From assembly GCA_947631295.1 (NCBI GenBank), contig CANRKU010000009.1:1-42055 (forward strand): DNA of 42,055 nucleotides, written 5' to 3'. Source of the stretch: an uncultured Bacilli bacterium (GTDB lineage: Bacteria; Bacillota_I; Bacilli_A; RF39; UBA660). The translations under genes and the position numbers were made by a program. The notes beneath the pieces are model-generated. The model was not told where the DNA came from. It worked only from the letters and a program-made list of their open reading frames with translations, and did not search any database. Numbering within the stretch: position 1 is the stretch's first letter; every line of letters starts with the position of its first letter. This document shows, in pieces, positions 16,323 through 33,482 of the stretch.

Positions 16323-16326
16323 TTAC

Positions 16327-16384
16327 GGACTTGCTAAGTCCTTTTTATTATTTTTAAAACGGACTGAATTAGTCCTTTATTTTT
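16327..16384 (+). terminator. Tandem terminators after the XRE gene
   Basis: GGACTT/AAGTCC (16327-16332 with 16336-16341, then TTTTT) and GGACT/AGTCC (16361-16365 with 16371-16375, then T-rich). Confidence 0.7.
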
Positions 16385-16453
16385 TCTTTTTGGTATTTTA
16401 AGATGAATGTGACAGGAGTTAAACCTGAAAATAAGTCTTAGTAGGAGGTATTG

Positions 16454-17317: not shown

Positions 17318-19257
17318 ATGCATTAATAAAATGTTCTCATCTAGAAAAATCATATCAAGATGTATCTGTATTAAAAAATTTTAATTATACATTTGGTAGT
17401 AAGGGTTTATATGTTTTATTTGGAAATAGTGGGACAGGAAAAACAACCTTTATAAATATTTTACTTGGACTTACTAATTTTGAAAAGGGAACTATTTATT
17501 TTAATGGAAAACAGTACATTAATATGGTTCATTATGAGGATATTGCAAAATATATTTCTTATATTTCCCAAGATTCTTACTTTGTTGACTATTTAAGTGT
17601 GTATGATAATATTAAAGTTTGTTCTCCAAATTTTAGCAATAATGAAATAGAAAAAGTATTACAACAAGTTCAGCTAGAAAATAAAAAAAATATATATCCT
17701 AATAAACTTAGTGGCGGTGAAAGACAAAGATTAGCAATTGCTCAATTGTTGTTAAAGAAAAAGAAAATTTTGATTCTAGATGAACCAACATCATCATTAG
17801 ATCATAAAAATAGAGATTTGTTTTTTCAAATAATTAATGCTTTAAAAGAAAAAGTATTAATTATTTGTTGTACGCATGATCAAAAAATTTTTGAATATGC
17901 TGATAGTATAATAAACTTTAATAGTTTACAAAATTATAATCAGATTGAAAAAAATAACGATAAAAATACAAACCATCAAATAATAGTAGATGAAGTTCAA
18001 CAAATAAAAGGTAGTATACTTTTAAAATATATATTAAAAAAGGACAAATATAAAAATCGAGAGAAAAAATCAGCCTTTTTTCTAATTTTAGTTTTTTTGA
18101 TTTCCTTATTATTATGTTTTATATGCTTTGGCTATAAAGAAAAATTATTACAAAGTTTAATTAATAGATATTCAGTTAATATGGTGAAAGTATTTTGTTC
18201 GATAGAGGAAGAAAATTATTGCGATAATATTTTGCAAAAGTATAATTCTACTTATAAAATTTATAATTATGCAGAAAATATTCCATCCGTTGAGGATGAG
18301 GTAGTTGATGGATCTTCAAGTGCAATTTATTTTGATCCTACTTTACTTACTTTGCCTTCAGAAAAACAGAGATTTAAAATTTCAGATTCCATTTTATATG
18401 GAAAATACTTTGAACAACCAAATCAAGTAATGCTAGGCTATAAATTGGCTTTTTCAATAAGCGAAGAGCCAGAGAAACTCATTGGAACAGAATTGGAAAT
18501 TGCACTTCCAGATGGGAACGAAAATTTTATAATTACAGGAATTTTTAATGAATTCTCTCCATCAGAAATTAACTATCTTAAAAGTGTTTATAATGATTTG
18601 GCGTTTGATTCTTATATGTATATAAATAGTGATTATGTTTCTAAATATTTATATGATGAACAGTTAGGGTTTAATGAAGAGGGAGATTTAAAATCAACAG
18701 TATTGACCGTATATTTTGATAACACAAAAGATTTATATAAATTTTATAAAGATTATGTAAATAAAGATCCAAGAATAAGTGGAATTAGTGCTAATGATTT
18801 TATTAATGGATTTGTTGAATATGAACAAGATATAGAGTTAGCAAAAATGATTTTTTATCCTTTAGTTATTTGTGTAACAGCAGTATCTGTTTTATTTTAT
18901 TTTCAGATTCAAAAAATAGAATTAATTTACAATAAACATATATCTGCTGTATATCAATATTATGGTTTTACAACTAGGCAAATTGAATATGCAAATATAC
19001 TTTATTCTTTAATTAATATTTTAAAAAAATATATGATTTCAATAGTTCTTGCAATTTTAGTTTCAAATTTAGTAAATATGGTAGTAGAATACCATAATAT
19101 TTTAGAATTCAAATTATTTATGATTGATTATAAGGTAATAATATTAATGTTATTTTCCTTATCGATATTTTCAGTTGTCTTATCATTGGTAAATCAAAAA
19201 AAAGTGCAAGTAAAAGGTTGGTTTAATGTACTGAAAGAAAGAAGTGATCTATTATGA
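17314..19257 (+). CDS. ABC transporter, fused ATPase-permease (MacB-like), first of pair
   Basis: Residues 1-~215 form an ABC ATPase: Walker A GNSGTGKTTF, signature LSGGERQRLA, Walker B ILILDEPTSS and the H-loop CTHD. The rest has the MacB/FtsX layout: one helix (~247-268), a long external domain, then three helices near the C-terminus (LVICVTAVSVLFYFQI and later). Such type VII ABC systems do not usually pump through the membrane. They pull on external partners, resist antimicrobial peptides or release peptides and lipoproteins. The ATPase is fused to the permease, unlike BceAB. It overlaps the preceding lipoprotein and the following paralogue by four bases each. Substrate unknown. Confidence 0.85.
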   Translation: MNALIKCSHLEKSYQDVSVLKNFNYTFGSKGLYVLFGNSGTGKTTFINILLGLTNFEKGTIYFNGKQYINMVHYEDIAKYISYISQDSYFVDYLSVYDNIKVCSPNFSNNEIEKVLQQVQLENKKNIYPNKLSGGERQRLAIAQLLLKKKKILILDEPTSSLDHKNRDLFFQIINALKEKVLIICCTHDQKIFEYADSIINFNSLQNYNQIEKNNDKNTNHQIIVDEVQQIKGSILLKYILKKDKYKNREKKSAFFLILVFLISLLLCFICFGYKEKLLQSLINRYSVNMVKVFCSIEEENYCDNILQKYNSTYKIYNYAENIPSVEDEVVDGSSSAIYFDPTLLTLPSEKQRFKISDSILYGKYFEQPNQVMLGYKLAFSISEEPEKLIGTELEIALPDGNENFIITGIFNEFSPSEINYLKSVYNDLAFDSYMYINSDYVSKYLYDEQLGFNEEGDLKSTVLTVYFDNTKDLYKFYKDYVNKDPRISGISANDFINGFVEYEQDIELAKMIFYPLVICVTAVSVLFYFQIQKIELIYNKHISAVYQYYGFTTRQIEYANILYSLINILKKYMISIVLAILVSNLVNMVVEYHNILEFKLFMIDYKVIILMLFSLSIFSVVLSLVNQKKVQVKGWFNVLKERSDLL

Positions 19258-21089
19258 TTAAGATAAAGAAATTATCTAGAACCTTTGACTTTAAAGTATT
19301 AGATAATATTGACTGTGAATTTGAATGTGGAAAAATTTATATATTAAAAGGAATTAGTGGTAGTGGAAAAACGACTTTTTTAAATATTTTAGCAGGATTA
19401 GATAATGGCTATACTGGTGAATGTAGCTATTGTGGAAAAGATTTAAAAAAAATGACCAAAAGAGAAAATAAACAGTATAGAAATGGTATTGGCTATATTT
19501 TGCAAGATAGTCTTCTAATTCATCACATGAATGTTATAGATAATTTAAGATTTATTGAGGATAATAATCAAAAGATTCTATATCTTGCAAAAAAATTTGG
19601 GGTAGAACATTTATTATATAAGATGCCATATCAGTTATCTGGTGGTGAAAGACAAAGATTTTCATTGATTAGGTCACTATTAGGAAATAGTAAAGTAATT
19701 TTAGCGGATGAACCAACATCATCATTAGATATGAAAAATTCAATGTTATTTGCTTCCTATTTAAATGAATTAAGGCAAAATAATAAAATATTGATTATAG
19801 CTACTCACAAAAATATTTATGATACAATAGCGGATAAGATCTATAATATTCAATTTGGCAAATTAAAAGAGATTAAAGGAAAAGTTAAAAATACAAAAAC
19901 TATTGAAAATAAGAAAAATAGTGCACTATTAGGTACTGAGTTTAAATTTAATCTTAAATATAACCTAAAATATCTTATATTAAGGGCAAAAAAAAATAAA
20001 AGCATTATATTAAATATATTTTTAGTATTATTGTTTGTTTTACTCTTTTTTTCACTAGCTATAAGGTTTAATTTTAAAAATGAATATATTCAATATAATA
20101 TGAATAAATATCCATATAATGTTCTCTCATTAACGGAAAGAGATTATAAGTATTTAGAAGAATTGATTGTTAGAAAATATGATGAATATGTTGTATTTGC
20201 TGATAATTATAATGGTTATGTATTGCCAAATAAAGAAGATAGTAATTTGAATATACCAGGTATTATTAAATATGGATCTTTTCCTCAGTTAGATAATGAG
20301 ATATTAATTAATAATGAATTTGCAAATTTATATTTTCCTAATGAAAAACTAGAAAAAGTTATTAATAAGCAAATTGAAGTTAATGGAAATAATTTTATTA
20401 TTTCTGGTATAGTAATGAAGGATGTCAATAATTATTTTGAAGTATATGGATGTAACCCCTATTATAAAAATATTAATAAAGGAGGGTATAATGAAATATC
20501 TTCACCAGCTATTTTTATTCCTTATAATACTATAATTAAAATTGGAAAAAAGATAGAATCTAATATATCCCTTAAATTAGTTGTAATAGATAAAGAAATC
20601 ACAGCAGATTTATATAATAATAAAATATTTACTGAAGCAAATAAACCAGTATTAGGAAACTATAGATCATGGGAAAACAAAATAGATTCAGTATCAAAGG
20701 ATGCCAATTTTATTGCTAATATATTTTTACTATTATTATTGTTTATTTCAATTGTATCAATTTTATTTGTAAGTAATAAAATAGGATTAGACTTATATTA
20801 TCGAAAAAAGGAACTTGGTTATTTACAACTATTTAGACTATCAAAAACTAGAATATTTTTTATTTATGTAGGAGAGTATTTGTTAAATATTATTAAGTCA
20901 TTATTTATATCCTTAATTCTGTATAATATTTTTTGTTTATTAATATATCAATTATATGAATTTAATCTGTTTTTGAACATTGAAATTAATATTATTTTAG
21001 TTTTAGCAATACTTATATACTGTGTTACTATAATTACTATTCCAATGTTAAAATATATGAAAAAAGATATAATTGAACTAATTAGATAA
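19254..21089 (+). CDS. ABC transporter, fused ATPase-permease (MacB-like), second of pair
   Basis: The 611-residue paralogue of the preceding gene has an intact ATPase domain (Walker A GISGSGKTTF, signature LSGGERQRFS, Walker B ILADEPTSS, H-loop ATHK). It has one helix at ~255-275, an external domain of ~210 residues and three C-terminal helices (ILVLAILIYCVTIITIPML is the last). Because both members keep complete ATP sites and are coupled by an ATGA overlap, they probably form a heterodimer. This is the last clear gene of unit 1. The most likely role is peptide-antibiotic or bacteriocin resistance or export; no bacteriocin precursor with a double-glycine leader was found nearby. Confidence 0.85.
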   Translation: MIKIKKLSRTFDFKVLDNIDCEFECGKIYILKGISGSGKTTFLNILAGLDNGYTGECSYCGKDLKKMTKRENKQYRNGIGYILQDSLLIHHMNVIDNLRFIEDNNQKILYLAKKFGVEHLLYKMPYQLSGGERQRFSLIRSLLGNSKVILADEPTSSLDMKNSMLFASYLNELRQNNKILIIATHKNIYDTIADKIYNIQFGKLKEIKGKVKNTKTIENKKNSALLGTEFKFNLKYNLKYLILRAKKNKSIILNIFLVLLFVLLFFSLAIRFNFKNEYIQYNMNKYPYNVLSLTERDYKYLEELIVRKYDEYVVFADNYNGYVLPNKEDSNLNIPGIIKYGSFPQLDNEILINNEFANLYFPNEKLEKVINKQIEVNGNNFIISGIVMKDVNNYFEVYGCNPYYKNINKGGYNEISSPAIFIPYNTIIKIGKKIESNISLKLVVIDKEITADLYNNKIFTEANKPVLGNYRSWENKIDSVSKDANFIANIFLLLLLFISIVSILFVSNKIGLDLYYRKKELGYLQLFRLSKTRIFFIYVGEYLLNIIKSLFISLILYNIFCLLIYQLYEFNLFLNIEINIILVLAILIYCVTIITIPMLKYMKKDIIELIR

Positions 21090-21187
21090 GTACATTTATA
21101 TTAATTTATTGCATTTTAGTAGTTTAATATAATATTGAGTAGATATTAAAAAAATTGCTATAATTTTAATTAATAGAAATCAATATA

Positions 21188-21265
21188 ATGAAAAATAAAA
21201 AATACCAAAAAGAGCCAAAAAGTTCTTGCATTGTAAATGTCAAGTATTATAATAATGTAAAATGA
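21188..21265 (+). CDS. Possible 25-residue peptide at the end of unit 1
   Basis: An ATG frame reads MKNKKYQKEPKSSCIVNV and ends YYNNVK before a TGA inside repeat A1. There is no good Shine-Dalgarno site, though TATAAT occurs at ~21160. The same C-terminal NNVK and stop end the small lipoprotein that enters repeat A2. It may be a remnant of a similar gene. The rest of 21090-21425 holds only repeats A1 and B2 and the promoter of unit 2. Confidence 0.25.
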   Translation: MKNKKYQKEPKSSCIVNVKYYNNVK

Positions 21266-21309
21266 AATTAGTATGCAAAAGAGGAAAAATCCTCTTTTTC
21301 TATTTCATT
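21250..21309 (+). repeat. Repeat A, copy 1 (60 bp, contains terminator)
   Basis: It matches 31403-31461 with one substitution and one 1-bp indel. It begins TAATAATGTAAAATGAAATT and ends CTATTTCATT. Inside, AAAGAGGA/TCCTCTTT forms a hairpin with a T run, nested in AATGAAAT/ATTTCATT. It marks the right border of cargo unit 1. Confidence 0.95.
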
Positions 21310-21342
21310 AAATAAGTAAATATTTGTATGTTGGGTTGGTGG
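21309..21342 (+). repeat. Repeat B, copy 2 (34 bp)
   Basis: It is identical to 14398-14431 and abuts repeat A1 with one shared base, so A and B are directly joined here. Confidence 0.95.
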
Positions 21343-21379
21343 GAAATTTAATAAATATTTTATTAGTAAACTTTTATGA

Positions 21380-21385
21380 TATAAT
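21380..21385 (+). promoter_or_regulatory. -10 box of the unit 2 leading gene
   Basis: TATAAT at 21380-21385; the -35 region is T-rich (TATTTT, 18-nt spacer) but weak. Confidence 0.4.
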
Positions 21386-21425
21386 ATTTATATATTAGTA
21401 GAGATTTATGAGGAGAAATAACTTT

Positions 21426-22454
21426 ATGAACGAAGCAATGAAAAAGTTAAAAAAGTTAATCTTTGATAATTTAAATAAAAAAATATTAATTTTAGGAACT
21501 ATTGGTATTCCTGTTAACGAAATTAAATATAAATTAGGTGTTGGCCAATTATATAAAAAAGTACTAGATGATTTATTTATAGCTAAATATGGTTACATTA
21601 ATATGAATCAAAATGATGCTAAATCTCTTGAAACATTAATTGAAATAAAAAAAGGAGAACCCTTATTTAGCAATAAAATTATTCCGTGTGATTTAATAAT
21701 ATTTATTTATGTAAATCCCAAAATATTAAGAATATTATGTGCTAAGGAAAATGAGTACTATGATGAAGCTCTTAAATTACAAAATGAATTATTAAAAAAT
21801 TTGCATAGTAATAATTACTCATTTATTAAAGTAGAATTTTATAAAAACAGTATTGGCTTAGACCATGTGGGTAGAAACGTTTACATATGTGGTGATTATA
21901 ATGGTTTTCTTACTGATAAAAGAGATATTGCTAAATATGATGATGAAGATAATAACTTTTTTCATTTTCCTTATATTAAACCCGTCAAAAATATAAATGA
22001 TCTTCAAAGAAAACAAGGATTTTTATTACTTATTTATGATAATTTTTTAGAAGTAAAAGATTGTCTTAGTATAGATAAAAAATATCGTAAATTATTTAAT
22101 CATTTTAATTTAGTTTATATTATTACTGAAGATGAGGAAAAACTTGAACAAGGCCATATTAAATATACTAATATTAATTTTGCAAGTGAAATACTTGATG
22201 ATGAGGATATAAATGAATTATATTATGATTATATTTTAAATACTGAAACAATAAATTTTTCTTCATCGAAGATTAAAATTCTTTCTGATATAAATAATTT
22301 TTTGAAGAATAAAAAAACTATAAAAACTAATGATTTAGCAAACAATTTTAATATTTCAATAAGACAAGCTGAAAGATATATGATAGATTACAATAAATTA
22401 TATCGAAACATTGGCTATGATTATAGTAAAAATGAATGGTATATTATTCATTAG
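21426..22454 (+). CDS. Winged-helix protein, likely regulator of the unit 2 operon
   Basis: The 342-residue protein ends in a helix-turn-helix segment (~285-342: KTNDLANNFNISIRQAERYM, then a wing ending NEWYIIH), the type found in WYL and DeoR-like regulators. The middle ~200 residues are alpha/beta (PCDLIIFIYVNP, NVYICGDYNG, FLLLIYDNF) and could be a ligand-binding fold, but I do not recognise it. The ATG at 21426 is preferred over 21408 because GAGGAG lies ten bases before it. It is transcribed separately: a terminator and a new promoter follow before the operon. The most likely job is to sense a signal and control the seven downstream genes. Confidence 0.6.
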   Translation: MNEAMKKLKKLIFDNLNKKILILGTIGIPVNEIKYKLGVGQLYKKVLDDLFIAKYGYINMNQNDAKSLETLIEIKKGEPLFSNKIIPCDLIIFIYVNPKILRILCAKENEYYDEALKLQNELLKNLHSNNYSFIKVEFYKNSIGLDHVGRNVYICGDYNGFLTDKRDIAKYDDEDNNFFHFPYIKPVKNINDLQRKQGFLLLIYDNFLEVKDCLSIDKKYRKLFNHFNLVYIITEDEEKLEQGHIKYTNINFASEILDDEDINELYYDYILNTETINFSSSKIKILSDINNFLKNKKTIKTNDLANNFNISIRQAERYMIDYNKLYRNIGYDYSKNEWYIIH

Positions 22455-22473
22455 ATACAATTATAAAAAGTAT

Positions 22474-22512
22474 GTTATTCTTTTATTTTAAAAGGAAATA
22501 ACGTATTTTTTT
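22474..22512 (+). terminator. Terminator between the winged-helix gene and the operon
   Basis: GTTATTCTTTT (22474-22484) pairs imperfectly with AAAAGGAAATAAC (ending 22502), followed by a run of eight T. Confidence 0.7.
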
Positions 22513-22540
22513 TGTCTTTTAAAAAAGAACGAAAAAAGCA

Positions 22541-22549
22541 TGATATACT
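22541..22549 (+). promoter_or_regulatory. Extended -10 promoter of the unit 2 operon
   Basis: TGATATACT: TG plus TATACT at 22544-22549. No good -35 lies at 17 nt, as expected for an extended -10 or an activator-dependent promoter. AAAGGAGG and the ATG at 22580 follow. Confidence 0.5.
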
Positions 22550-22579
22550 TGATGCATATTGAAAGGAGGAAAAAGTTTA

Positions 22580-23359
22580 ATGAATTATGCATGGGCAAGT
22601 AAGTATGTCCAAAAAATAGTTGATAGCAAGGACAATATTGTTGACCAATTAAAGGAATTAAGTAAGTTTAAGTATCGAAAGGGGGTAAGACAATATATTG
22701 ACCGACTTATTCTTGCTAATACAACTCGTGATTATGATTTAGATGCCAAGTATATTTTATATTGTATTATTAAATATTATTATGGTTTAGAAGTACAAGA
22801 TGGTGAGGAACCACTAATTATTCCTAATTCTCTTGGTATTATTACACCTGCCGATTATAATATAGATTTCATTGCAAACCTTCTAAATACTAAAGATAAT
22901 ATTATTGATCAATGTAAATTATTAAAAAAGCATCAAGATTCTCCTGATGTTCAAAAATATATATCTTGCGCTACAACTTATTTTGACTATGATGCTCCAG
23001 TACTTTATGGCTTATCTACGGAATACGAAATGTATTGCATTAATAAATATTTTTATGGTTATGATGTCCCTTTAGTAAAATCTAATCATGTTAGATTAGG
23101 TGTTTGGCCAAAGAAAAGAGCTAGCAAAAAACCTAGCATAGAGGAATCAATAGTCGAATATACCCCATTTGAAGATGTTAAGAAAGGAGATAAAGTTAAA
23201 ATCTTAACGGGACCATTTACTGGTATATTTGGTACCATTGATTCTGTTGATCATGATAATCAAAAAATTATGTTACTGGTTGATTTATTTGGTCAAGAAA
23301 CTTCTGTTGAACTTACTGAGGATGACAGAATATTAAAGGAGGATGATCCTCATGAATGA
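22580..23359 (+). CDS. Duplicated helical domain fused to a NusG-like KOW domain
   Basis: The 259-residue protein has two copies of a ~62-residue helical unit (residues ~11-72 and ~102-163), each with the pattern KDNI-DQ-K-L, then -YI, then Y--YCI-KY-YG. The C-terminal ~55 residues (KKGDKVKILTGPFTGIFGTI, VDLFGQETSVEL) match the KOW domain of NusG, which contacts NusE/Rho and the ribosome. The N-terminal NGN domain of NusG, which binds RNA polymerase, is missing. The duplicated unit is unfamiliar. As first gene of the operon it may link the system to transcription or translation. ATG 22580, with AAAGGAGG upstream, is preferred over the TTG at 22559. Confidence 0.65.
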   Translation: MNYAWASKYVQKIVDSKDNIVDQLKELSKFKYRKGVRQYIDRLILANTTRDYDLDAKYILYCIIKYYYGLEVQDGEEPLIIPNSLGIITPADYNIDFIANLLNTKDNIIDQCKLLKKHQDSPDVQKYISCATTYFDYDAPVLYGLSTEYEMYCINKYFYGYDVPLVKSNHVRLGVWPKKRASKKPSIEESIVEYTPFEDVKKGDKVKILTGPFTGIFGTIDSVDHDNQKIMLLVDLFGQETSVELTEDDRILKEDDPHE

Positions 23360-23954
23360 TAATATTTCTGTTATCCTTAGTGATAACTTTAAAAATCGTA
23401 TTCCTTTGTTAGTTAATATTTTAAAAGAATACGGAATAAGAGAACAAAAAAGAGTTTATATCCAATCTTTTTTATTCCATTCTTCTCATTATGTTAATCG
23501 CTTAATTTCTTTAATTTCTAAAATAGACTTTAAACTTGTCGAAAGTTATATATTTCCTGTTGGGGCTAAAACAAAGGCAGTAATAAAAGAAAAAATTGAT
23601 TATAATGAATTTATGTCAGCATTAGAAAAAATACGTCATTCTAATATTGTAATAAGTAGCAATAAAGTTTTTGATGAAGATTGGCTAGATTATATATTTG
23701 ATAAAACGATTGAACCTTATGATGTCATCATAATTGATGATTTTGACAAATTTTTAAAAGAATCAAATAAAGATATTAAAACGATTAAAGAAACTATAGA
23801 AGAGTATAGTAAAAAGTATAATACTTCTGTAATTTTATTTACTAATAATAGTAAATTAAAAAATAATTTTTTAAATTGGAAAATTGCTAAAGTAAATGAT
23901 CCATTAGAATTCGTATTTGATGATAAAAACTATAATATTATTGATATATGTTAA
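23352..23954 (+). CDS. DnaB-like RecA-fold protein lacking Walker A (first of two)
   Basis: The 200-residue product follows the core of the replicative helicase DnaB strand by strand: the P-loop position (ISVILSDNFKNRIPLLVNIL), the strand-helix matching DnaB FSLEMS-x-x-QL (RVYIQSFLFHSSHYVNRLIS, then KIDFKLVES), the Walker B position (YDVIIIDDFD, ~123-132) and the next strand (NTSVILFTNN). The P-loop Gly-Lys-Thr is gone, so ATP use is unlikely. There is no DnaB N-terminal domain. It is 203 residues shorter than the DnaB core plus tail would suggest and ends soon after the RecA fold. The start at 23352 gives nine bases to AAGGAGG and overlaps the previous gene by eight bases. It is a distant paralogue of 26721-27455. 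Confidence 0.6.
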   Translation: MNDNISVILSDNFKNRIPLLVNILKEYGIREQKRVYIQSFLFHSSHYVNRLISLISKIDFKLVESYIFPVGAKTKAVIKEKIDYNEFMSALEKIRHSNIVISSNKVFDEDWLDYIFDKTIEPYDVIIIDDFDKFLKESNKDIKTIKETIEEYSKKYNTSVILFTNNSKLKNNFLNWKIAKVNDPLEFVFDDKNYNIIDIC

Positions 23955-23969
23955 GGAGTTGATATTAAA

Positions 23970-26021
23970 ATGCCAGAAAGAGTAGAATTTAAAGTTTTTA
24001 CTAAAATGACAAAAGATAGTATTGTTGATTTTAAAGAATTAATTAACTATGCAAAAAGTATAGGATTAAATAAATTAGCTATTACTGATTTTAATAATGT
24101 TTATAATTTTCCTAAAATAGAGAAATATCTAAAAACTAATAATATTACGGATTTGAAGATTATCTATGGAACGGTTGTAAAAATGCTTGTGTTTGATACA
24201 ATTATCCCAATTACAGTATTAGTAAGAACCCAAGAAGGATTAAAAAACTTATATAAAATAATTACTAAAATAAAAACGACAAACTTAGATAAATATGGAA
24301 AACAAGTTATAACTAAAGATGAATTAGGTCTTTTAAGTGATGGATTATTATATGGTCTAGATTTATCGTATATGGAAGATATATATAATGATTTAGAAGA
24401 TTATCAAATAAAAGATGATTTAATATGGTGGGATTTTATTGAGGTAAATTCATTTTTAGATAAAAACTATTTAAAAAGAATAATAAATATTGCTAAAGGG
24501 GTTCATAAACTTGTTATAGCATCAAATAATGTTTGTTATTTAAAAAAAGAAGAACAAGATGATTATAAAATGCTTTTCAAAGATAATAAACTAGCTAGTT
24601 ATTTAAAAACAACTAAGGAAATATTAAATGATTTTAACTTTTTAGAAGATGATTTGGCATATGAAATAGTTATCACAAATCCAAATAAGCTGGCAAACTT
24701 AATGAATGATATAAAAATACTTGGCGATAAATGTTATTTACCTCAAATTAAAGATAGTAAAAATAAAATATTGGGAATAATCAATAAAAAAATAAATGAA
24801 TTATGTGGTGAAAACGTTCCAACTATTATTACAAATAGAATAAATGAAGAATTATATGGTAAAGATGACTCTTGCAAATATGGAATAATTAACATGAATA
24901 CAGAATCTTTATTTTTAATATCTAAAAAACTTGTTGATAGGTCTTATGATATGGGATACCCTTCATTTGTCAGAGGTGGTGTTGCGTCATCTTTTATTGC
25001 TTATTTAATGGGTATTACAAGTATAAATCCTCTTCCTTCTCATTATTATTGTCCTAAGTGCAAAAAATTTTATTTTGATGAATCTTTAACTTATAATTAT
25101 GGAATAGATATGCCTGATAAAAATTGTCCTAAGTGTCATAGTGAATTAAAAAAAGATGGCTTTAATATCCCTTATGAAAACTTTTTAGGTTTAAATGTTG
25201 AAAAAATACCAGATATTGATATTAATTTTGCATATTGTATTCAAAAAGATTTAATCAAGTATTTAATTGATTCTTGGGGAAAAGATTACACTATTAGAGC
25301 TAGTGCTATTGCTTTAACAGGGACCATCAATGCTGAAGAAAAGATTATCCAAAAAAATTTGGATGTAAGTAATCAAGAAAAATCTCGATTAATAAAAAAA
25401 TTAGAAGGCAAGTTAAAATATACTGGCCAACATCCGGGTGGTGTATTTTTAATACCTAAGGATAAAGAAGTATATGATTTTACCCCTTGTAACTATCCGA
25501 ATAACGATAATAAATATCATTATTTAAGCACGCATTTTGATTATCATGATCTTGATTCAAATCTTATTAAATTTGACATATTGGGACATAGATTACCTAC
25601 ACTAATAAAAGAATTAGAAGACTTAACTAAAGTTAAATTAGTTGATATACCATTAAATGAGAAAGATGTTTTTGATTTAATAAATAAGGGAGATACAGAA
25701 GATTTGTTTGAATTAGATGATGAATGTGCTAAAAGCTTAATAGATATTATAAAACCACATGATTTTGAAGATTTAGTGAAGATCATTGGTCTTTTACATG
25801 GTAATGGTATAACAGATAAAATTAAAGAATTATCGGAAAATAAAGCATTAATTAAAGATTTAAAAGTCTATCGAGAAGATATATCTAACTTGGAAAATAT
25901 TGGTTATGTACCAGTAAAAGCACACATTATTTCTTATACTTTAATCGCATATAAATTTGCTTGGTATAAAGCTAAATTCCCAACGATTTTTGTTGATTTA
26001 ATGCATAAATATCATGAATAG
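23970..26021 (+). CDS. Shortened PolC-type DNA polymerase III alpha-like protein
   Basis: The 683-residue protein is clearly derived from Gram-positive PolC, which is about twice as long. Residues ~1-280 are a PHP domain that has lost its metal ligands (KVFTKM for HTHTKM, ITDFNN for ITDHG) and has no 3'-5' exonuclease insertion. The polymerase core follows: RGGVASSFIAYLMGIT (~335), a zinc site with C361/C364/C386/C389, IPDIDINF with the palm aspartates D415 and D417, TGQHPGG (~486), and KFDILGH with the third aspartate D536. It ends near KAHIISYTLIAYKFAWYKAK, where PolC would go on to HhH and duplex-binding domains. The palm triad is intact, so nucleotidyl transfer is possible, but clamp- and duplex-binding parts are missing. 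AAGGAG lies upstream. Confidence 0.85.
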   Translation: MPERVEFKVFTKMTKDSIVDFKELINYAKSIGLNKLAITDFNNVYNFPKIEKYLKTNNITDLKIIYGTVVKMLVFDTIIPITVLVRTQEGLKNLYKIITKIKTTNLDKYGKQVITKDELGLLSDGLLYGLDLSYMEDIYNDLEDYQIKDDLIWWDFIEVNSFLDKNYLKRIINIAKGVHKLVIASNNVCYLKKEEQDDYKMLFKDNKLASYLKTTKEILNDFNFLEDDLAYEIVITNPNKLANLMNDIKILGDKCYLPQIKDSKNKILGIINKKINELCGENVPTIITNRINEELYGKDDSCKYGIINMNTESLFLISKKLVDRSYDMGYPSFVRGGVASSFIAYLMGITSINPLPSHYYCPKCKKFYFDESLTYNYGIDMPDKNCPKCHSELKKDGFNIPYENFLGLNVEKIPDIDINFAYCIQKDLIKYLIDSWGKDYTIRASAIALTGTINAEEKIIQKNLDVSNQEKSRLIKKLEGKLKYTGQHPGGVFLIPKDKEVYDFTPCNYPNNDNKYHYLSTHFDYHDLDSNLIKFDILGHRLPTLIKELEDLTKVKLVDIPLNEKDVFDLINKGDTEDLFELDDECAKSLIDIIKPHDFEDLVKIIGLLHGNGITDKIKELSENKALIKDLKVYREDISNLENIGYVPVKAHIISYTLIAYKFAWYKAKFPTIFVDLMHKYHE

Positions 26022-26037
26022 CTATGGATGATTAAAG

Positions 26038-26718
26038 ATGAAATTAAAAGATGAAAAGATAAATAAGTTCTTTAAAGCAACTATATCGTTTGAGAATGAT
26101 AAATACATGAGTATAGTTTTATATTTAGTTTATAATGGCAAAGAAAAATTAAAAGGGTTAATTCCACAAATAAAATTTAAAGTTTGGGAAAAAGAAAAAT
26201 TTATGACAGTTGATATAGAAAATATAAAAATTCTAGAAGAGTGGAAAGAAATTCATAAAAATGATAAATTATATATAAAGGATGTATTAGATTATGTAAA
26301 AACACACCAACAATTATTATTAGATTATTGGAATGCTGATATACCAGAGTTTGAAGCAAAACAAATATTTTTTGATGAGACAAATGATCGTTTCGGATGT
26401 ACTAGTTTAAGTAAAAGAAAATCAGGTTTACCTATGAATTTAGTTTTTTATTGTTCTTATACACTTGATAGAGATAATATATTATTTTTTCAGAATGATT
26501 ATGAAAACCTTAATTATAATAACATGATTATGATGAGTGTTGATAAAGAAAACCCACAAGTATTAGTAAATAGAAAAATAAATATAAAAGAAGAAGATAT
26601 GATACTATTAAAAAATTTTATAAAGAAATATTATAAAGTAATAACAAAATATAATGATGATACTATTAATGATGCTGAAATATTTGATTTAATTGATGAA
26701 GATGCAAAGGAGTTTTAA
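26038..26718 (+). CDS. Orphan 226-residue protein of the unit 2 operon
   Basis: I do not recognise this protein. It is soluble, with a beta-rich first half (FFKATISFENDKYMSIVLYL, IPQIKFKVWEKEKF), a helix KTHQQLLLDYWNADI and a second mixed half (LPMNLVFYCSYTLDRDNILF) ending in an acidic tail. There is no cysteine cluster, P-loop or nuclease motif. It lies 16 bp after the polymerase-like gene and 2 bp before the second DnaB-like gene, so it is made with them. The ribosome-binding site is weak, which suggests translation depends on coupling to the gene before. A structural partner of the polymerase-like protein is possible but unproven. Confidence 0.55.
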   Translation: MKLKDEKINKFFKATISFENDKYMSIVLYLVYNGKEKLKGLIPQIKFKVWEKEKFMTVDIENIKILEEWKEIHKNDKLYIKDVLDYVKTHQQLLLDYWNADIPEFEAKQIFFDETNDRFGCTSLSKRKSGLPMNLVFYCSYTLDRDNILFFQNDYENLNYNNMIMMSVDKENPQVLVNRKINIKEEDMILLKNFIKKYYKVITKYNDDTINDAEIFDLIDEDAKEF

Positions 26719-26720
26719 AA

Positions 26721-27455
26721 ATGAATGATTTTAAAGAAAATTATATACCTTTAACAGTAGTTGCATCAGAACCTTTAAATGGTAAAATGGAATTAATTTA
26801 TAAAATAATTTGTGATTTTGGAATAAATGCTAAAAAAAGTATCCAAATTTTTAACTTTGATGGAAATAATCATTGGTTTACAGAAAATTTAATCGCTAGT
26901 ATATCTAAAATGGATAAACATAAAGTTGAAGCTTATTTTAATCCTTGTGAGGTAGTAGGTAAACTTTATAAAGATTCTTTAGATATAAAAAAATTGGACT
27001 ATGCTGTTAAATTATTACAAGAACATGATATAATAATGGTAGATTTTGATAAGCAAATAATTTCCAAAGATTATTTAGACTATTTAATAGACTATCATCA
27101 AGATGTTAATAGAAAACCACGAGATATTTATATTATAAATACTTTGGATGCTCTTTTAAAAAAAACTACTTATAGTAAAGAAATGGTACTTGAAAAACTT
27201 TCTAATTTTGCTAAGAAGAATCAAGTTCAAATAATTGTAATTGCAGATGCCAAATATAGAAATAGTCAAAATCTTGAATTAAATGATATCATAGAATATG
27301 AAACAATTTGTAAATATACTACCAAATATTTATTATCCAAAAGAGAAACTAAAAATACACTAGCTGTTTTAGAATATAATGCTGAAAATGATATAACTTC
27401 AATAAAAAGATATAAAGTAAATTTCGATAGTCATTATATCAAGGAGGAGATATAA
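26721..27455 (+). CDS. DnaB-like RecA-fold protein with degenerate Walker A (second of two)
   Basis: The 244-residue product matches the DnaB ATPase core: the P-loop position reads VVASEPLNGKMELI where DnaB has AARPSMGKTAL, so Gly-Lys remain but Thr is Met. KSIQIFNFDGNNHWFTENLI corresponds to the SLEMS helix, ISKMDKHKVE to the S-RVD-x-x-LR turn, IYIINTLDALL (~136-146) to Walker B IVIDYLQLM, and VQIIVIADAKY to VPVIALSQLSR. The Walker B acid is changed to Asn (IINT). Helicase activity is therefore unlikely. The protein is related to 23352-23954 and has the same lack of an N-terminal domain. A structural or decoy role, for example a mixed ring with host or phage DnaB, is inference. Confidence 0.65.
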   Translation: MNDFKENYIPLTVVASEPLNGKMELIYKIICDFGINAKKSIQIFNFDGNNHWFTENLIASISKMDKHKVEAYFNPCEVVGKLYKDSLDIKKLDYAVKLLQEHDIIMVDFDKQIISKDYLDYLIDYHQDVNRKPRDIYIINTLDALLKKTTYSKEMVLEKLSNFAKKNQVQIIVIADAKYRNSQNLELNDIIEYETICKYTTKYLLSKRETKNTLAVLEYNAENDITSIKRYKVNFDSHYIKEEI

Positions 27456-27459
27456 AAGT

Positions 27460-28740
27460 ATGAAAGTAAGAATTATTAAAGGCACTAATCAAATAGGTGG
27501 TTGCATTACTGAAATAACTAGTGATAAAGGAACGAAAATTATTATTGATTTTGGTGAAGAATTAACTGACGAATCTAATTCATGTATTGATTATCCATTG
27601 GATGGACTTACTTATGGAAAAACAAAATATAAGGGAGTTTTTATAACACATAGTCATGGTGATCATATTGGACTTATTCCTAATATTAAAAAGAATATTC
27701 CAATATACATAGAAGAAATCTCAGCAAAGATTTTTGAGGTGTCAAATGCCTTCTGTTCAGGAAAATCATTTCATGGCAAATTAAAGAAATTTAAGTTTGA
27801 AGAAAAAATAACCATAGATGATTTAGTTATAACACCATATCGCACTGATCATTCGGCTTATAATTCTACTATGTTTTTGATAGAAAACAATGGTAAAAGA
27901 GTGTTACATTTAGGTGATTATCGTTCTACAGGTTACAGTGGAAAGACATTTTATGATAATTTAAAGAAAATTGGATCTGTCGATTTATTAATAACTGAAG
28001 GCACTAACGTAACCAATCCTAACAAAGAAAGTAGTACAGAAGTAGAATTAAAAGAAAAAGCTAAAAATATATTTAAAAACTATAAACAAATATTTATTTT
28101 ACAAGCCTCTACAAATTTAGATCGTTTACGTAGTTTTAGAGAAGCAGCTTTAGAAACAGGTAAAAAATTTATTTTAGATATTTCAACCGCAAATATATTA
28201 AAAGCCATAGATGACCCTAATTATCAGTATTTAAATGATGAAGATGTAACTACATGGGTACCTAATGCCTATTCAAAAAATAATAAATCTAAAAGAGTAG
28301 ACAGTTTTTATTCTCACAAAGATTCTGATTTTTATCAAAAATACATTGAACCATTTGATAATATTAAATTCAAAAAAGAACATGTTCATGGTGAGTATGT
28401 CATGTTAGTTAAAACATCCATGGCTAAAGATATAGAATGCAATTTAAAAAATTATCGGGATAATGCCCATTTAATATATTCGATGTGGCTTGGGTATAAA
28501 GATAAGACAAGACCTAATACAGAAAAGACAAGAGAATTTTTAGATCATATGAAGAATCTGAATATTGATGAAGAATATCTTCATACATCTGGACATGCTG
28601 ATTTAAAAACAATTCAGGATGTCTTTGAAATAGTTAAACCTAAGAAAGCTATTGGTATACATACTAAAGATAATACTAAATTAGCAGAATATTGTGCTAA
28701 TTATGTCATAATAAATGATAATGAAGAAATTGAGGTGTAA
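27460..28740 (+). CDS. RNase J-like beta-CASP metallo-beta-lactamase nuclease
   Basis: The 426-residue protein has the full metal site: HSHGDH (H64, H66, D68, H69), then TDHSA, LHLGDYR, and the beta-CASP motifs ITEGT, SGHAD and IGIHT. RNase J and CPSF-like enzymes of this family are 5'-3' exo- or endonucleases on RNA, and some act on DNA. It lacks the ~100-residue C-terminal domain that RNase J uses to form dimers. All catalytic residues look intact, so this is probably an active nuclease. GGAGGAG lies upstream, 4 bp after the DnaB-like gene. In this operon it is a candidate effector. It is not the housekeeping rnj gene judging by location and divergence. Confidence 0.8.
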   Translation: MKVRIIKGTNQIGGCITEITSDKGTKIIIDFGEELTDESNSCIDYPLDGLTYGKTKYKGVFITHSHGDHIGLIPNIKKNIPIYIEEISAKIFEVSNAFCSGKSFHGKLKKFKFEEKITIDDLVITPYRTDHSAYNSTMFLIENNGKRVLHLGDYRSTGYSGKTFYDNLKKIGSVDLLITEGTNVTNPNKESSTEVELKEKAKNIFKNYKQIFILQASTNLDRLRSFREAALETGKKFILDISTANILKAIDDPNYQYLNDEDVTTWVPNAYSKNNKSKRVDSFYSHKDSDFYQKYIEPFDNIKFKKEHVHGEYVMLVKTSMAKDIECNLKNYRDNAHLIYSMWLGYKDKTRPNTEKTREFLDHMKNLNIDEEYLHTSGHADLKTIQDVFEIVKPKKAIGIHTKDNTKLAEYCANYVIINDNEEIEV

Positions 28741-28742
28741 TC

Positions 28743-30386
28743 ATGGAAATAGATGGAATGAGTTTTGAAGAATTTATAGAAATTTTTGATGAGTATTTTC
28801 AAAATTTTATTTTGAGAGTAAGAGATTCTAAACAAGATTATAATAAGAGTAATGATAAGGAATGTTTAGTTTATTACAGTGGGATAGAGGCTTTTACTGT
28901 CATAGAATATAAAAAAGATGGCAAAAAAGGTATCAAGTTAGATTTTCCAATAAATGTATATAAATTAAATCCAACAGGACTAAGGAATGCAAGTAAAAAA
29001 AGTAATGATGAAGAAGTTTTGATTGATGAACAAATAGAAGATTTTGAAGAAGGTCAAACGAGAGAACAAAAAGAAGCCAAATATCGTATTGGTGTTGGAA
29101 ATATATGTGATGCGATGCATAAATTGTTTGATTTTGAGATGGATAAAATTACTTTTAATATAAATTTTAGTGAAAATAAAAAGATAGATAAAGATAAAAT
29201 AATAAACAATTTTTATAAATTAATAGTTCATGAATTTGCTCAGCTTACAAATAGTCATAATCGAGATAAAAATACCAAAAACTTAACTAACAATTCTATT
29301 TTTAAAATAACTAATAATAAAAATAATAATATTATAGATTCTATTTCATCTAAAGCAGAATGTTATGATATTTGTCAGGAGTTTTCTGATCAGGTTGAAT
29401 TTACTTTAAAATTTACTCCAAAATTGACAACTAGGGATGAAGAAAGAAATTCAACACCTAAAGACATTATCGCTTTACAATGTTGGTTTTTAAGAAAAGC
29501 AAGAGATATGGGTGTAACTAGTGGTGTTGAATTTACTGTTAATTCTTATTATAGAGGTAGATATGATACTGAAAAGTCATTACAAAGGTTTTCAGAAAAT
29601 ACTAAAAATGCTATTGAAAAATATAAATTTACCTCTTGTAGAAAATTAGAAAAATCATATCAGCATTTCTTTATGCTTCGGGCACATGAGATGAATGATT
29701 TATTTGAAATTCAAAAAGATGAAAAAATAGATTATTTTGAACAAGAATATGGTATATATAATCCAAAAGTATATGGATCTGAGCATTTTAAAAAAGATAA
29801 AAAAACAGATAAAACTGGTAGAATAGATTGTATAGTTTATAAATACAAATTAGATGGCAAGAAGAGATTAATAAGTGATCTATATATGATTGAATTAAAA
29901 GTTAATTGCGATGTTATATTAGGGGATAATGGGGTTATGACACATCTAGAAGATATTTGTGCATTCTTGAATTATGAAGGTAATGTTAAATATCGATATT
30001 CTACGTTAGAAAAGAGAATTAATGATCGTATAAAAATATTATCAGGAGGAAAAGAAGAAGCAAGATTTGAAAATGTTGCTAAGCACTTTTATACAGTAAT
30101 TGGATATACTAACGAGAACGAGTCTGAGAAAGAGATCATAATGGGAATGTTAAAAAAGTTAAATGATAAGGATACTGTTGATGAAATGATAAAATGTGGT
30201 TATCCTAAAACTGTAGATGGTAAGACTAAAAAATTTTACTTGAATAAACGTTTTAAAGGCATAACGCTTCGCGATTTAAAACAAAATATTAATAAATGTG
30301 ATATCAAATTCTTCTTAGAAAAAAATATTTTTAATGAAAAAAATATAGGAGTAGATTTTGATGATATTACTAAAGAATTATTTTAA
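28743..30386 (+). CDS. Probable PD-(D/E)xK nuclease, last gene of the unit 2 operon
   Basis: In this 547-residue protein the segment ~358-390 reads TGRIDCIVYKY, then ISDLYMIELKVN. An Asp (D362) followed 22 residues later by E384-L-K386 in consecutive strands is the PD-(D/E)xK signature, and upstream glutamates (~333-347) could complete it. The N-terminal ~290 residues include a beta-rich region (MDKITFNINFS, VEFTLKFTPKL) and are unfamiliar. The stop of the previous gene is two bases away and its end supplies the GAGGTG site. It is a second possible nuclease effector. It could instead be a structural protein with a relict nuclease fold. No strong terminator follows. Confidence 0.6.
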   Translation: MEIDGMSFEEFIEIFDEYFQNFILRVRDSKQDYNKSNDKECLVYYSGIEAFTVIEYKKDGKKGIKLDFPINVYKLNPTGLRNASKKSNDEEVLIDEQIEDFEEGQTREQKEAKYRIGVGNICDAMHKLFDFEMDKITFNINFSENKKIDKDKIINNFYKLIVHEFAQLTNSHNRDKNTKNLTNNSIFKITNNKNNNIIDSISSKAECYDICQEFSDQVEFTLKFTPKLTTRDEERNSTPKDIIALQCWFLRKARDMGVTSGVEFTVNSYYRGRYDTEKSLQRFSENTKNAIEKYKFTSCRKLEKSYQHFFMLRAHEMNDLFEIQKDEKIDYFEQEYGIYNPKVYGSEHFKKDKKTDKTGRIDCIVYKYKLDGKKRLISDLYMIELKVNCDVILGDNGVMTHLEDICAFLNYEGNVKYRYSTLEKRINDRIKILSGGKEEARFENVAKHFYTVIGYTNENESEKEIIMGMLKKLNDKDTVDEMIKCGYPKTVDGKTKKFYLNKRFKGITLRDLKQNINKCDIKFFLEKNIFNEKNIGVDFDDITKELF

Positions 30387-30687
30387 AATAAGTTGTTTAA
30401 GAAATATAAAATACATTCAATTTAGTTTATTATATAATATCATTAGTTAATAAGTGTTTAAAAGTAGGATATTTTTTAAAGATAATCACAAACAGTTCAA
30501 AAATTTTAAAAATAATATTTGAAACAACAGTTGAATTTTATTATTAAATTATAATATCAAAAAAATAACTAGGATTAGAAATTTGAACTAATTTTCTCCT
30601 AAGCGATAGTTCGGCAGTTCTATTCTATCCGGGAACACTAGATTGATAAGAAATTCAGAAAAATACGAGTAAAAATAGAAAGCGTAC

Positions 30688-30716
30688 TTGATAAAAACAC
30701 GTTTTTATGTTATGAT
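30688..30716 (+). promoter_or_regulatory. Promoter of the antitoxin RNA
   Basis: TTGATA (30688-30693), a 17-nt spacer, TATGAT (30711-30716). No protein start follows. The predicted RNA start is ~30723. The stretch 30387-30680 shows no gene I can support. Confidence 0.75.
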
Positions 30717-30722
30717 GAATAT

Positions 30723-30840
30723 GTCAAGGAAACTTGCATAAAATAAAAAGGATACATTTGATTGCTTGGATCAGATGTTATCCCTTATGTGGAATGCATC
30801 TGAAATCAACACATGTTGAAATCAGATGCTTTTGCTATTT
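30723..30840 (+). ncRNA. Predicted antisense RNA antitoxin (type I)
   Basis: It runs from a strong promoter to the hairpin GCATCTGA (30796-30803) / TCAGATGC (30822-30829) with T-rich tail. It is ~115 nt, has no credible ORF, and is fully complementary to the 3' part of the toxin mRNA, which runs the other way. This convergent overlap is the layout of txpA/RatA and bsrG/SR4 in Bacillus. Confidence 0.65.
30740..30786 (-). terminator. Terminator of the toxin mRNA
   Basis: On the minus strand AAGGGATA (30786-30779) pairs with TATCCTT (30754-30748), followed by a T-rich run. This also places the complement of the toxin mRNA's 5' end at its 3' end. Confidence 0.5.
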
Positions 30841-30912
30841 TAGAAGTAAAATAATTACCACTAAGAATAGGAGTAATATTATAATAAATTGAGAAAATTC
30901 TCTTTTTGTCAT
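30835..30912 (-). CDS. Type I toxin: 25-residue hydrophobic peptide
   Basis: The minus-strand ATG is at 30912-30910 and the stop TAG at 30837-30835. The product begins MTKREFSQF and continues as one uninterrupted hydrophobic helix of Ile, Leu, Val and Phe to a final Lys. This is the form of the Fst/TxpA/BsrG group of membrane toxins. GAAAGGTGGTGG is a very strong ribosome-binding site. Its promoter lies ~70 bp before. The RNA of the opposite strand should repress it. A repeat of GGATACATTTGA at both ends of the mRNA in opposite orientation would let the 5' and 3' ends pair and hold translation down, as in other type I toxins. It would help keep the element in the population. Confidence 0.75.
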   Translation of the reverse strand: MTKREFSQFIIILLLFLVVIILLLK

Positions 30913-30990
30913 AAATACCACCACCTTTCTTTTATCCTTTGATAAATAGAAAGGGAAAGCATCTGATATATTTCAAATGTATCCAATAGC

Positions 30991-31019
30991 ATCATATCAA
31001 ACAAACGTTCTTTGTGCAA
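30991..31019 (-). promoter_or_regulatory. Promoter of the toxin mRNA
   Basis: On the minus strand: TTGCAC (31019-31014), a 17-nt spacer, TATGAT (30996-30991). The predicted start is the G at ~30984, at GGATACATTTGA. Confidence 0.7.
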
Positions 31020-31262
31020 TATATTTGTGTTAAAAATTATACAATTTCAAAATAAATATTTTGGTTTTTAAGCTTTTTATACAAAATGAAATATGTAATC
31101 TTTTATTTTATTGACTTTATATGCTAATGAAGTATACTTATAATAGATTATAATATTCTGTCTGTATTTTAATATATACCTTACTAGGATAATGAAATTA
31201 TCTAAGTTTAAAATGAATTCATAGATTTATTATTATTTTGTGAGGTGCAATTAAGAGGTTAT

Positions 31263-31418
31263 ATGAAAAAAATTAAATTGAATGTTTTTTTTAGCCGATT
31301 ATTATCGCTATTATTATTCATAGTAGTAATAGCAGTAGCATTTTTGTTTATAGGATGCAAAGAATGTGAACAAAAGGAAACATGGGATACAATTCAAGAC
31401 ATTAATAATGTAAAATGA
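31263..31418 (+). CDS. 51-residue lipoprotein-like peptide
   Basis: The ATG at 31263 has AAGAGG just upstream. The product has a basic start, a long hydrophobic segment (LLSLLLFIVVIAVAFLFIGC) with a plausible lipobox FIGC, and a short tail CKECEQKETWDTIQDINNVK. The stop lies inside repeat A2. It is too short for a typical solute-binding lipoprotein. It may be a small membrane peptide or the cut end of a gene that recombined at repeat A. I do not recognise it. Confidence 0.5.
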   Translation: MKKIKLNVFFSRLLSLLLFIVVIAVAFLFIGCKECEQKETWDTIQDINNVK

Positions 31419-31461
31419 AATTAGTATGCAAAGAGGAGAAATCCTCTTTTTCTATTTCATT
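31403..31461 (+). repeat. Repeat A, copy 2 (59 bp, contains terminator)
   Basis: Second copy of 21250-21309, with AAGAGGA/TCCTCTT hairpin and T run. It marks the right border of cargo unit 2. Confidence 0.95.
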
Positions 31462-31524
31462 TTTATGAAAGTGATGAGCAATCAATAGATTTTGCATATA
31501 ATATCATAGAAAGGAGAAGAACTG

Positions 31525-33144
31525 GTGAGTAATAAATTTTGTAATGTCCCAACGAACTGTTACATTTTTGGTCCAACAGGCCCAACAGGACCTACTGGTG
31601 AAGCAGAATCCATTACAATTGGTAACGTTAGTACAACAGATTATCAAGATGAAGCTCAAGTAATAGATCATAAAGAAGGACTTGTTCATACACTAGATTT
31701 TGTGATTCCAAGAGGACAAATAGGAATACCAGGGCCTAGAGGAAAAGATGGGACTAGTGTTACGATTTTAGGATCTTATGTATCTGTTTCAGAACTGAAT
31801 AAAGTACATCCTATAGGCCATATGGGAGAATCTTATTTAGTAGGTAACAATTTATATATATGGTCTGAAACAGATGATACTTGGAAAGATGTAGGTCAAA
31901 TTAAAGGTCCGCAAGGAGAAAGAGGAATTCAAGGAGTACAAGGTATTCAAGGAGAAATAGGTCCTCAGGGTGAAAAAGGAGAACAAGGAATACCAGGGCC
32001 AGTAGGAATGCAGGGAGAAGTAGGTCCTAAAGGAGATCCTGGTGAACGAGGAGAGCAAGGTCCACCTGGGCCTCAAGGTATTCAGGGTGTTCCTGGACCA
32101 AAAGGAGATAAAGGAGAAAAAGGTGACCAAGGAATACCAGGACCAGAAGGAATTGAAGGTCCAAAAGGTAATCCTGGAGAAAGAGGAGAACAAGGACCAC
32201 CCGGACCACAAGGTTTGCAGGGAATCAAAGGAGATCCTGGTGAGCCAGGCGAAAGAGGTGAACAGGGTCCACCTGGGCCTCAGGGTATTGCTGGTCCTAA
32301 AGGAGATCCTGGTGAACGAGGAGAAAAGGGTGAACAGGGTCCACCTGGACCTCAAGGAATGCAAGGAGAAGTAGGTCCTAAAGGTGATACTGGGTTAGGA
32401 GAAACTATCAGTCTTGGAGTTGTAGTAACGGGAGCAGCTGGAACTTTTGCGAAAATTGTAGATCATAAAGATGGATTAAATCATCGATTAGATTTTGTGA
32501 TTCCTCGCGGTGTAAATGGTAGTGATGGCGAGAAAGGTGAACCGGGACCTCCAGGACCTCAAGGCGAGCAGGGTTTTCCTGGACAAAAGGGTGAAAAAGG
32601 AGAACCCGGGGAAAGAGGTATTGCTGGTCCACCCGGACCTCAAGGGCCTCCAGGTCCATTAGTAATACCTACCGTTTCTATTACTACTTTTCATCCTGAA
32701 AATTCCGATAATGGGATTAAAGTAGAAGCCAATCAAAATCTTCCACTAGATTTAAAAATTACGAATGAAGAAGCAGATTTTATTTTAAATGAAGAAGAAC
32801 AGACTATAACCATAAAATACCCAGGTACTTATCGAGTAGATTTTGTGGTATATGCTAATTCAATTAGTAGTGGTAGTTTTATAAAATCAAAGGATATTGT
32901 CTCTATTGGTTTTAAAAGAATCAATGAAGAAACAGTATATGCAGGTGCAAGTATTTGGAGTGATAATCAATTACCTTCAGCAGTTGTTGGAAGTGGTATT
33001 ATTACAGTAGTTGATAATGATGATACTTTTGAATTAGTCAATGTTGGAAAACAAGATATCTATTTAAATAGCCCTACTTTAGATGATGATACTTCCTTAT
33101 TTTCTAATCCTGTTGTTAGCATGATTATTCAGAAAATTCAATAA
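31525..33144 (+). CDS. Collagen-like protein with BclA-type C-terminal domain
   Basis: The 539-residue protein starts with GTG after AAGGAG. A short N-terminus ([20 protein letters not shown]) resembles exosporium-targeted proteins. Two Gly-X-Y tracts follow (bases ~31720-32395 and ~32515-32660, rich in GPPGPQG and GERGEQG). Before each tract sits a similar non-collagen segment ([18 protein letters not shown] and [18 protein letters not shown]). The last ~150 residues ([41 protein letters not shown]) have the C1q/TNF-like beta form of BclA, which trimerises spore-surface filaments. Cargo of this kind inside an element that interrupts a sporulation gene is notable. A CATATAATA lies at 31495-31503 with no SigA -35, so a sporulation sigma factor could read it. 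That is inference. Confidence 0.85.
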
Positions 33145-33170
33145 GAGTAGTTTTTTAATTACTCTTTTTA
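33143..33170 (+). terminator. Terminator of the collagen-like gene
   Basis: AAGAGTA (33143-33149) pairs with TACTCTT (33160-33166), then T. A second weaker hairpin, AGAAC/GTTCT with a T run, lies at 33187-33220. Confidence 0.75.
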
Positions 33171-33259
33171 TGTGTATTTCTTTTTTAGAACATTTTTCCA
33201 TGATTTAAGTTCTTTTTTTAATTTTTATTAATAATTTTATATAGAAGGAGGTATTATGA

Positions 33260-33457
33260 TTGATTTCCATACAAGAACCAATATCTATTGATGTTAAAAA
33301 ATTACCAAAAGAGTACCAAGTTTTAAATTTAAGAATGCTTTTTAATAAAGAATTATATGATGAAAAAATAATAACTTTTGATATCTTTGATCGGATGCAA
33401 AAATTATTAATGAAGAAGATGGATCAATTTATTTTAAAGAATAGGAATAATCTATAG
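33260..33457 (+). CDS. Small protein next to the recombinase, possible directionality factor
   Basis: This 65-residue helical protein (EPISIDVKKLPKEYQVLN, MLFNKELYDEKIITFDIFDR) starts at TTG 33260, eight bases after AAGGAGG. The ATG at 33256 gives only an 11-residue frame. The KELYDEKIITFDIFDRMQK part resembles the short helical segments often found in small proteins beside large serine recombinases. It is 25 bp before the recombinase gene and co-directional. Excision by large serine recombinases needs a small partner protein. This is the only candidate in the element beside the recombinase, so an RDF role is a fair guess, not shown. Confidence 0.55.
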   Translation: MISIQEPISIDVKKLPKEYQVLNLRMLFNKELYDEKIITFDIFDRMQKLLMKKMDQFILKNRNNL

Positions 33458-33482
33458 TCAAATTAGAAAGGAACCAAATACC

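Follow-up and report, generated by a model that had tools for sequence, protein, structure and literature searches.

Why should a genome that already has genes for PolC and DnaE, on a different contig, also carry the gene for a half-size PolC? The gene lies in a stretch of 42,055 nt (hereafter the window), which is one contig of the 1.1-Mb genome of an uncultured Bacilli bacterium. A preliminary description, made from the sequence alone, read its product as half of a PolC that keeps the palm aspartates, the zinc site and the RGG and GQHPGG motifs, and proposed that the selective loss of the other parts points to a new function. All of these features are present in the 683-aa protein, which we call mini-PolC. 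As argued below, mini-PolC is most likely not a working polymerase but a look-alike part of a putative defence-type system. Replicative polymerases are usually seen as enzymes that a cell cannot do without, not as a source of pseudo-enzyme sensors.

Domains, motifs and fold of mini-PolC

The product of the mini-PolC gene matches the Pfam families PF07733 (E=2e-37), PF17657 (finger domain, 1.1e-13) and PF02811 (PHP, 1.8e-12) and the NCBIfam PolC model (2.7e-142), and its residues 3-624 match the Geobacillus PolC structure 3f2b (2.2e-91). The palm aspartates D415 and D417 (in IPDIDINF) and D536 (in KFDILGH) are kept, as are RGG (residues 335-337), GQHPGG (residues 486-491) and the zinc cysteines C361, C364, C386 and C389. 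Alignment and domain searches also bore out what had been said of the missing parts. The metal ligands of the PHP domain are lost, with HxH changed to K8/F10, the histidine of TDH to F41 and the glutamate of GTE to V69, and the DVHH histidines are gone too. The DEDDh exonuclease insertion in the PHP domain is absent, and the chain stops past the fingers, at residue 683, with no HHH_6 domain and no HhH/duplex-binding or clamp-binding C-terminus. Inactivated PHP sites are common in PolC, and a dead PHP domain is by itself ordinary (PMC12926913).

Damage to the fingers had been overlooked. The fingers are the part of the polymerase that binds the incoming nucleotide. Against L089 and L102 (labels of this kind are our own), relatives about 75% identical that served as the reference, mini-PolC has lost 48 fingers residues in frame, between VYRED (at about residue 637) and ISNLE. 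In the fingers SGLSHGTDVWLGNA has become IGLLHGNGITDKIK, by which the SGLSHGTDVW motif is broken; complete fingers with nucleotide-binding motifs are therefore not present. The deletion and the broken fingers motifs are a feature of the clade to which the window protein belongs.

Structure prediction, compared with the PolC crystal structure as the preliminary description had suggested, indicates that the fold is kept: the AlphaFold model has a mean pLDDT of 88.3 and a TM score of 0.88 to 3f2b, with the lowest confidence at residues 637-645, the join of the fingers deletion. Pairwise dN/dS is about 0.2 for the whole gene, 0.16-0.31 for the PHP and palm parts and 0.2-0.4 for the fingers, and the reading frame is intact in every close relative. 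Mini-PolC is under purifying selection; relaxed selection across the family, which had been named as a sign against a new function, is not what these values of about 0.2 describe. Given the kept fold and the purifying selection, we regard the protein as a scaffold and not as a pseudogene.

The operon and the mobile element that carries it

The mini-PolC gene belongs to a tight, conserved operon, which the preliminary description had missed (Table 1). Eight genes make up the operon at 21408-30386, and from the KOW gene to the PD-(D/E)XK gene the intergenic gaps are 2-16 nt or the genes overlap. Its regulator gene, found in almost all related operons, has a weak WYL-type HTH match (15.8 bits). 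A deoxynucleoside-kinase origin of the regulator N-terminus, an idea formed by eye, gained no support from searches and is not claimed here. The KOW domain is absent from some members of the KOW protein family.

Table 1. Features of the window, in positions of the 42,055-nt stretch
Feature	Position	Strand	Remarks
Regulator-like protein	21408..22454	+	348 aa, C-terminal winged HTH; first gene of the module
KOW protein	22577..23359	+	Two related N-terminal helical segments and a NusG-type KOW domain
DnaB-like protein 1	23343..23954	+	Walker A replaced by SDNFKNRIP; DnaB_C E=0.012
Mini-PolC	23970..26021	+	683 aa; PHP without metal site, palm aspartates intact, 48-residue fingers deletion
226-aa protein	26038..26718	+	No significant family match; only in operons of the window clade
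DnaB-like protein 2	26721..27455	+	PLNGKM where GRPSMGKT is expected; DnaB_C E=0.0013
Recombination junction between sensor-like and nuclease modules	27456..27558	+	Switch in DNA identity
Beta-CASP metallo-beta-lactamase, RNase J-like	27460..28740	+	All catalytic motifs invariant in the family
PD-(D/E)XK-like protein (putative)	28743..30386	+	E335, D362, E384-x-K386 invariant
Serine recombinase	33483..35123	+	Resolvase 2.4e-28, Recombinase 2.7e-24; right end of the mobile element
Mobile element inserted in spoVD	14223..35187		spoVD halves and junction sequences

Both DnaB-like neighbours of mini-PolC are weak but reproducible relatives of DnaB_C (E values in Table 1), and the family profile of these proteins matches replicative helicases in the PDB (E=1.5e-4). 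The Walker A motif (GxxxxGK[ST]) is gone in all DnaB-like proteins compared, the two window copies included. One lineage (L092, L100 and L119; 903-905 aa) has a PolC-like protein that continues at its C-terminus into a DnaB-like domain; this fusion argues for a physical complex.

The metallo-beta-lactamase belongs to the RNase J/beta-CASP type, and its HxHxDH motif and motifs III, IV, B and C (HSHxDH, DH, HxGD, SGHA and IHT) are invariant in 14 members. The invariant residues of the last operon protein (Table 1) form a PD-(D/E)XK-type pattern. Since a Foldseek search with its predicted model gave no significant match, we treat this assignment as putative, based on the motif and on predicted secondary structure that fits the alpha-beta-beta topology. 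Used as a query against genome contigs and viral contigs, the PD-(D/E)XK protein found no match, its sequence being too divergent for such scans. The metallo-beta-lactamase and the PD-(D/E)XK-like protein are fused in L012, L013 and L091. The pair recurs with no mini-PolC nearby in Bacteroidetes and others, and on a Rhizobium plasmid it lies beside restriction-modification genes. On the Butyrivibrio proteoclasticus plasmid pCY186 (L189, 4089-12635), genes for a WYL regulator, a PD-(D/E)XK-like protein and a metallo-beta-lactamase are followed by dnaX and then by a gene, annotated as hypothetical, for a 480-aa DnaE-like protein with no PHP domain and with a broken palm motif, possibly a parallel pseudo-polymerase in a cultured strain.

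The two halves of the operon have different histories. For window DNA at 21411-27558 the identity to L012, L013 and L044 is 86-89%, and there the match ends; window DNA at 27456-30383 matches L105 and L106, at 79-80% identity. At the protein level the window is 86% identical to G190 in PolC and 45% in the metallo-beta-lactamase, whereas for L106 the values are 50% and 84%. The point of crossover coincides with the conserved start of the metallo-beta-lactamase gene. The sequences give direct evidence of a module swap between the two operon halves, which appear to be mixed and matched and which we would call 'sensor' and 'effector'.

The spoVD gene is split in the window into an N-terminal half (13168-14235) and a C-terminal half (35132-36046). 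AACC is common to both element junctions, and joining the flanks there restores QNSCNPGFVK. From the split gene, the serine recombinase and the shared AACC junctions we conclude that the operon is part of a mobile element some 21 kb long. The arrangement resembles that of intervening elements in sporulation genes: excision at AACC would restore spoVD. Other cargo comprises genes for an ABC transporter pair with FtsX-like permeases and lipoprotein-like genes (16451-21089), resembling genes for lantibiotic or peptide export and immunity, and a gene for a 539-aa collagen-like repeat protein (31525-33144). A non-coding stretch of 346 bp with inverted repeats (30680-31025) has a second copy in the same genome (C5, 83% identity) and another upstream of a KOW gene in L110 (91%). 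It reads as a small repeat element or RNA; an Rfam search of the window at 20.9-33.6 kb gave no match.

Elsewhere, one cassette lies near Wadjet JetA and a second immediately precedes a PADLOC candidate gene, and JetA occurs anywhere in the genome in 4 of 14 carrier genomes. Most other cassette neighbours are ordinary chromosomal genes, which makes the defence-island context weak. In two genomes (loci L096/L118 and L011) cassettes that have no mini-PolC nearby adjoin the full-length polC of the host; in G312 a cassette lacking mini-PolC is directly upstream of host polC, and in G221 a PD-(D/E)XK gene directly follows host polC. Though only two cases, they are suggestive of a functional tie between the cassette and PolC. 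The 1590-aa PolC of L096, annotated as a part of the system, is not one: it is the ordinary PolC of the host, encoded just after a cassette that has no mini-PolC. The polC end at L011 is likewise that of the host.

The family of operon-linked PolC-like proteins

About 30 other genomes of Bacilli and Clostridia contain related operons, and uncultured gut Bacilli and Clostridia are among the relatives carrying related sequences. Among the matches listed for 291 genomes of the same family were five further half-size PolCs (672-688 aa), and all half-size PolC-type matches listed there sit in the same cassette neighbourhood. Further operons were found with the KOW protein, whose N-terminal part is the marker, and with the metallo-beta-lactamase as queries; KOW matches spanning only model positions 192-238, which are NusG KOW domains, were left out. 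Solo members of the KOW family, outside full cassettes, occur at L088, L094, L095 and L098, the last of which has 83% DNA identity to the window at 22436-23441.

Twelve of the 31 operon-linked PolC-like proteins compared have retained the palm triad, and in 19 (four of them short, under 360 aa) it is broken or absent. It is kept in the window's six-member clade, where D415, D417, D536, RGG and GQHPGG are conserved in 6 of 6 members, and in L090, L109, the Clostridia proteins L139, L144 and L146, and the viral contig L187. Among the losses, G221 has PQII in place of PDID and KIN in place of KLD, L106 has PNIN, and G103, L134 and L143 have no palm motif at all. Fingers or palm broken in other members had been named beforehand as what would refute the first interpretation, and for the palm this is what the family shows. 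A tree separates the Bacilli PolC-like set from host PolCs with strong support; plain parsimony explains the triad states on it by two changes, and if loss is irreversible the tree reads as at least four triad losses. Domains are lost progressively across the family.

The Clostridia proteins L139, L144 and L146 and that of L187 look catalytically competent. The viral contig L187 (IMG/VR, 6338-11263) encodes a 790-aa PolC composed of exonuclease, PHP, palm and fingers, with an intact palm, near a metallo-beta-lactamase of the cassette family. Phage PolC matches are about 30% identical, the best being L192, a PolC with no metallo-beta-lactamase nearby. Two other candidates were set aside: L157 is an ordinary DnaE, and the 'PolC' matches of L172 are only DnaQ-like exonucleases.

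Given the triad loss in relatives and the damaged fingers of the window protein, DNA synthesis is not supported as the function of the PolC-like family. We propose that catalysis by the PolC-like protein is dispensable for what the family does.

What the operon may do

A new function after selective loss, as first suggested, agrees with the purifying selection, the kept fold and the conserved operon. Of the particular functions put forward at that time, the best fit is mimicry of the replicative polymerase: the DnaB-like proteins encoded in the same operon have no Walker A motif, and in one lineage such a protein is fused to the PolC-like protein. We infer a role in defence. Stated broadly, it is somewhat more probable than not that mini-PolC belongs to a replisome look-alike that has no catalytic role and acts through a two-nuclease effector in a conflict or defence-type system. 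The look-alike module would consist of the regulator, the KOW protein, the DnaB-like proteins and mini-PolC, coupled exchangeably to the effector made of the beta-CASP metallo-beta-lactamase and the PD-(D/E)XK-like protein. Such a module might occupy or recognise replicating foreign DNA, or phage or plasmid proteins aimed at PolC and DnaB, and recognition would license the nucleases to cut the nucleic acid of the invader or to stop the cell. The palm aspartates of the window protein are kept from its ancestor and could still serve to bind a metal or the end of a primer. A narrower version, which we hold tentatively, is immunity by a replisome decoy, in which a polymerase and a helicase would have been turned into a non-catalytic bait or guard for invader action at the fork that fires the exchangeable pair of nucleases.

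The look-alike could instead act as a dominant-negative mimic that blocks phage, plasmid or host replication at primer-template or helicase sites, with the nucleases merely carried along. A fold that is kept while catalysis degrades, next to DnaB-like proteins that have lost Walker A, is what such a mimic should look like. However, passive carriage is at odds with nucleases that are constantly coupled to the module and whose active sites are invariant, and with the exchange at that junction, and the clamp- and duplex-binding parts needed to compete at the fork are missing. We consider this reading unlikely. A little less likely still is a replication or maintenance module whose proteins join the host replisome to replicate or partition the mobile element. 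It would account for the polymerase and helicase homologues and for their location on an integrative element with a serine recombinase, but the surroundings of other copies differ and show no element genes in common, the cassette has no initiator or origin that we could find, a pair of nucleases is an odd partner for such a task, and the palm has been lost repeatedly.

Active synthesis by the palm-intact members, non-processive or untemplated, whose product, a short DNA or a nucleotide, would activate the nucleases, is favoured by the complete conservation of palm motifs in the window clade and by the purifying selection on the palm region. It is improbable, with the palm broken elsewhere in the operon family and the fingers damaged here by the deletion, and the initial suggestions of template-free or non-processive synthesis or of nucleotide signalling are not supported as the function of the family: the triad is broken or absent in the majority of its linked members. 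That the gene is a decaying remnant of a mobile PolC heading for loss, as the progressive loss of domains might suggest, is contradicted by the uniform constraint and the intact frames and can hardly be maintained.

If a look-alike of the replisome does serve defence, the module-swapping operon of PolC-like, DnaB-like and two probable nuclease proteins would rank as a new candidate for a defence system in gut Bacilli and Clostridia, and the operon suggests the replication fork as an immune checkpoint. The family would also give a natural series, from an apparently competent exonuclease-less PolC to a fully dead palm, and its palm-intact and palm-broken members make the need for the palm directly testable.

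Comparison with known systems

The component families and the logic of a sensor coupled to a nuclease are already known. PADLOC (2023) gave no convincing match for any cassette protein; in the open-access literature we found no PolC-like or DnaB-like defence component and no description of a decaying replicative polymerase as part of a sensor-plus-nuclease system.

With the PolC-type DNA polymerase III alpha of Geobacillus kaustophilus (3f2b) the window copy shares the PHP, palm and partial fingers fold, the palm aspartates, the zinc site and GQHPGG. Unlike it, mini-PolC has no exonuclease, HhH, OB or clamp-binding part and no PHP metal site, and it has the 48-residue fingers deletion, an operon with nucleases and relatives that have no palm. 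The DnaB-like proteins have an RecA-like region recognisable by profile as that of the C-terminal domain of DnaB-type replicative helicases, but they are weakly similar, lack the N-terminal domain and a normal Walker A, and come as two paralogues per operon. The cassette metallo-beta-lactamase has the catalytic motifs of RNase J/beta-CASP enzymes (2az4 EF2904, RNase J1), yet it is shorter (about 420 aa), forms a separate family and is paired, sometimes fused, with the PD-(D/E)XK-like protein. Like Lamassu or Wadjet in PADLOC, the cassette has swapping sensor-like and nuclease parts and is found on mobile elements, while it has no SMC and no protein in common with them. A further parallel is offered by ImuB/iPolY in DnaE2 mutasomes, where a polymerase fold is likewise used with no catalysis of its own; those proteins are of the Y family and serve repair synthesis together with an active DnaE2, whereas mini-PolC is of the C family, is encoded with nucleases and has no active polymerase in its operon (PMC12926913).
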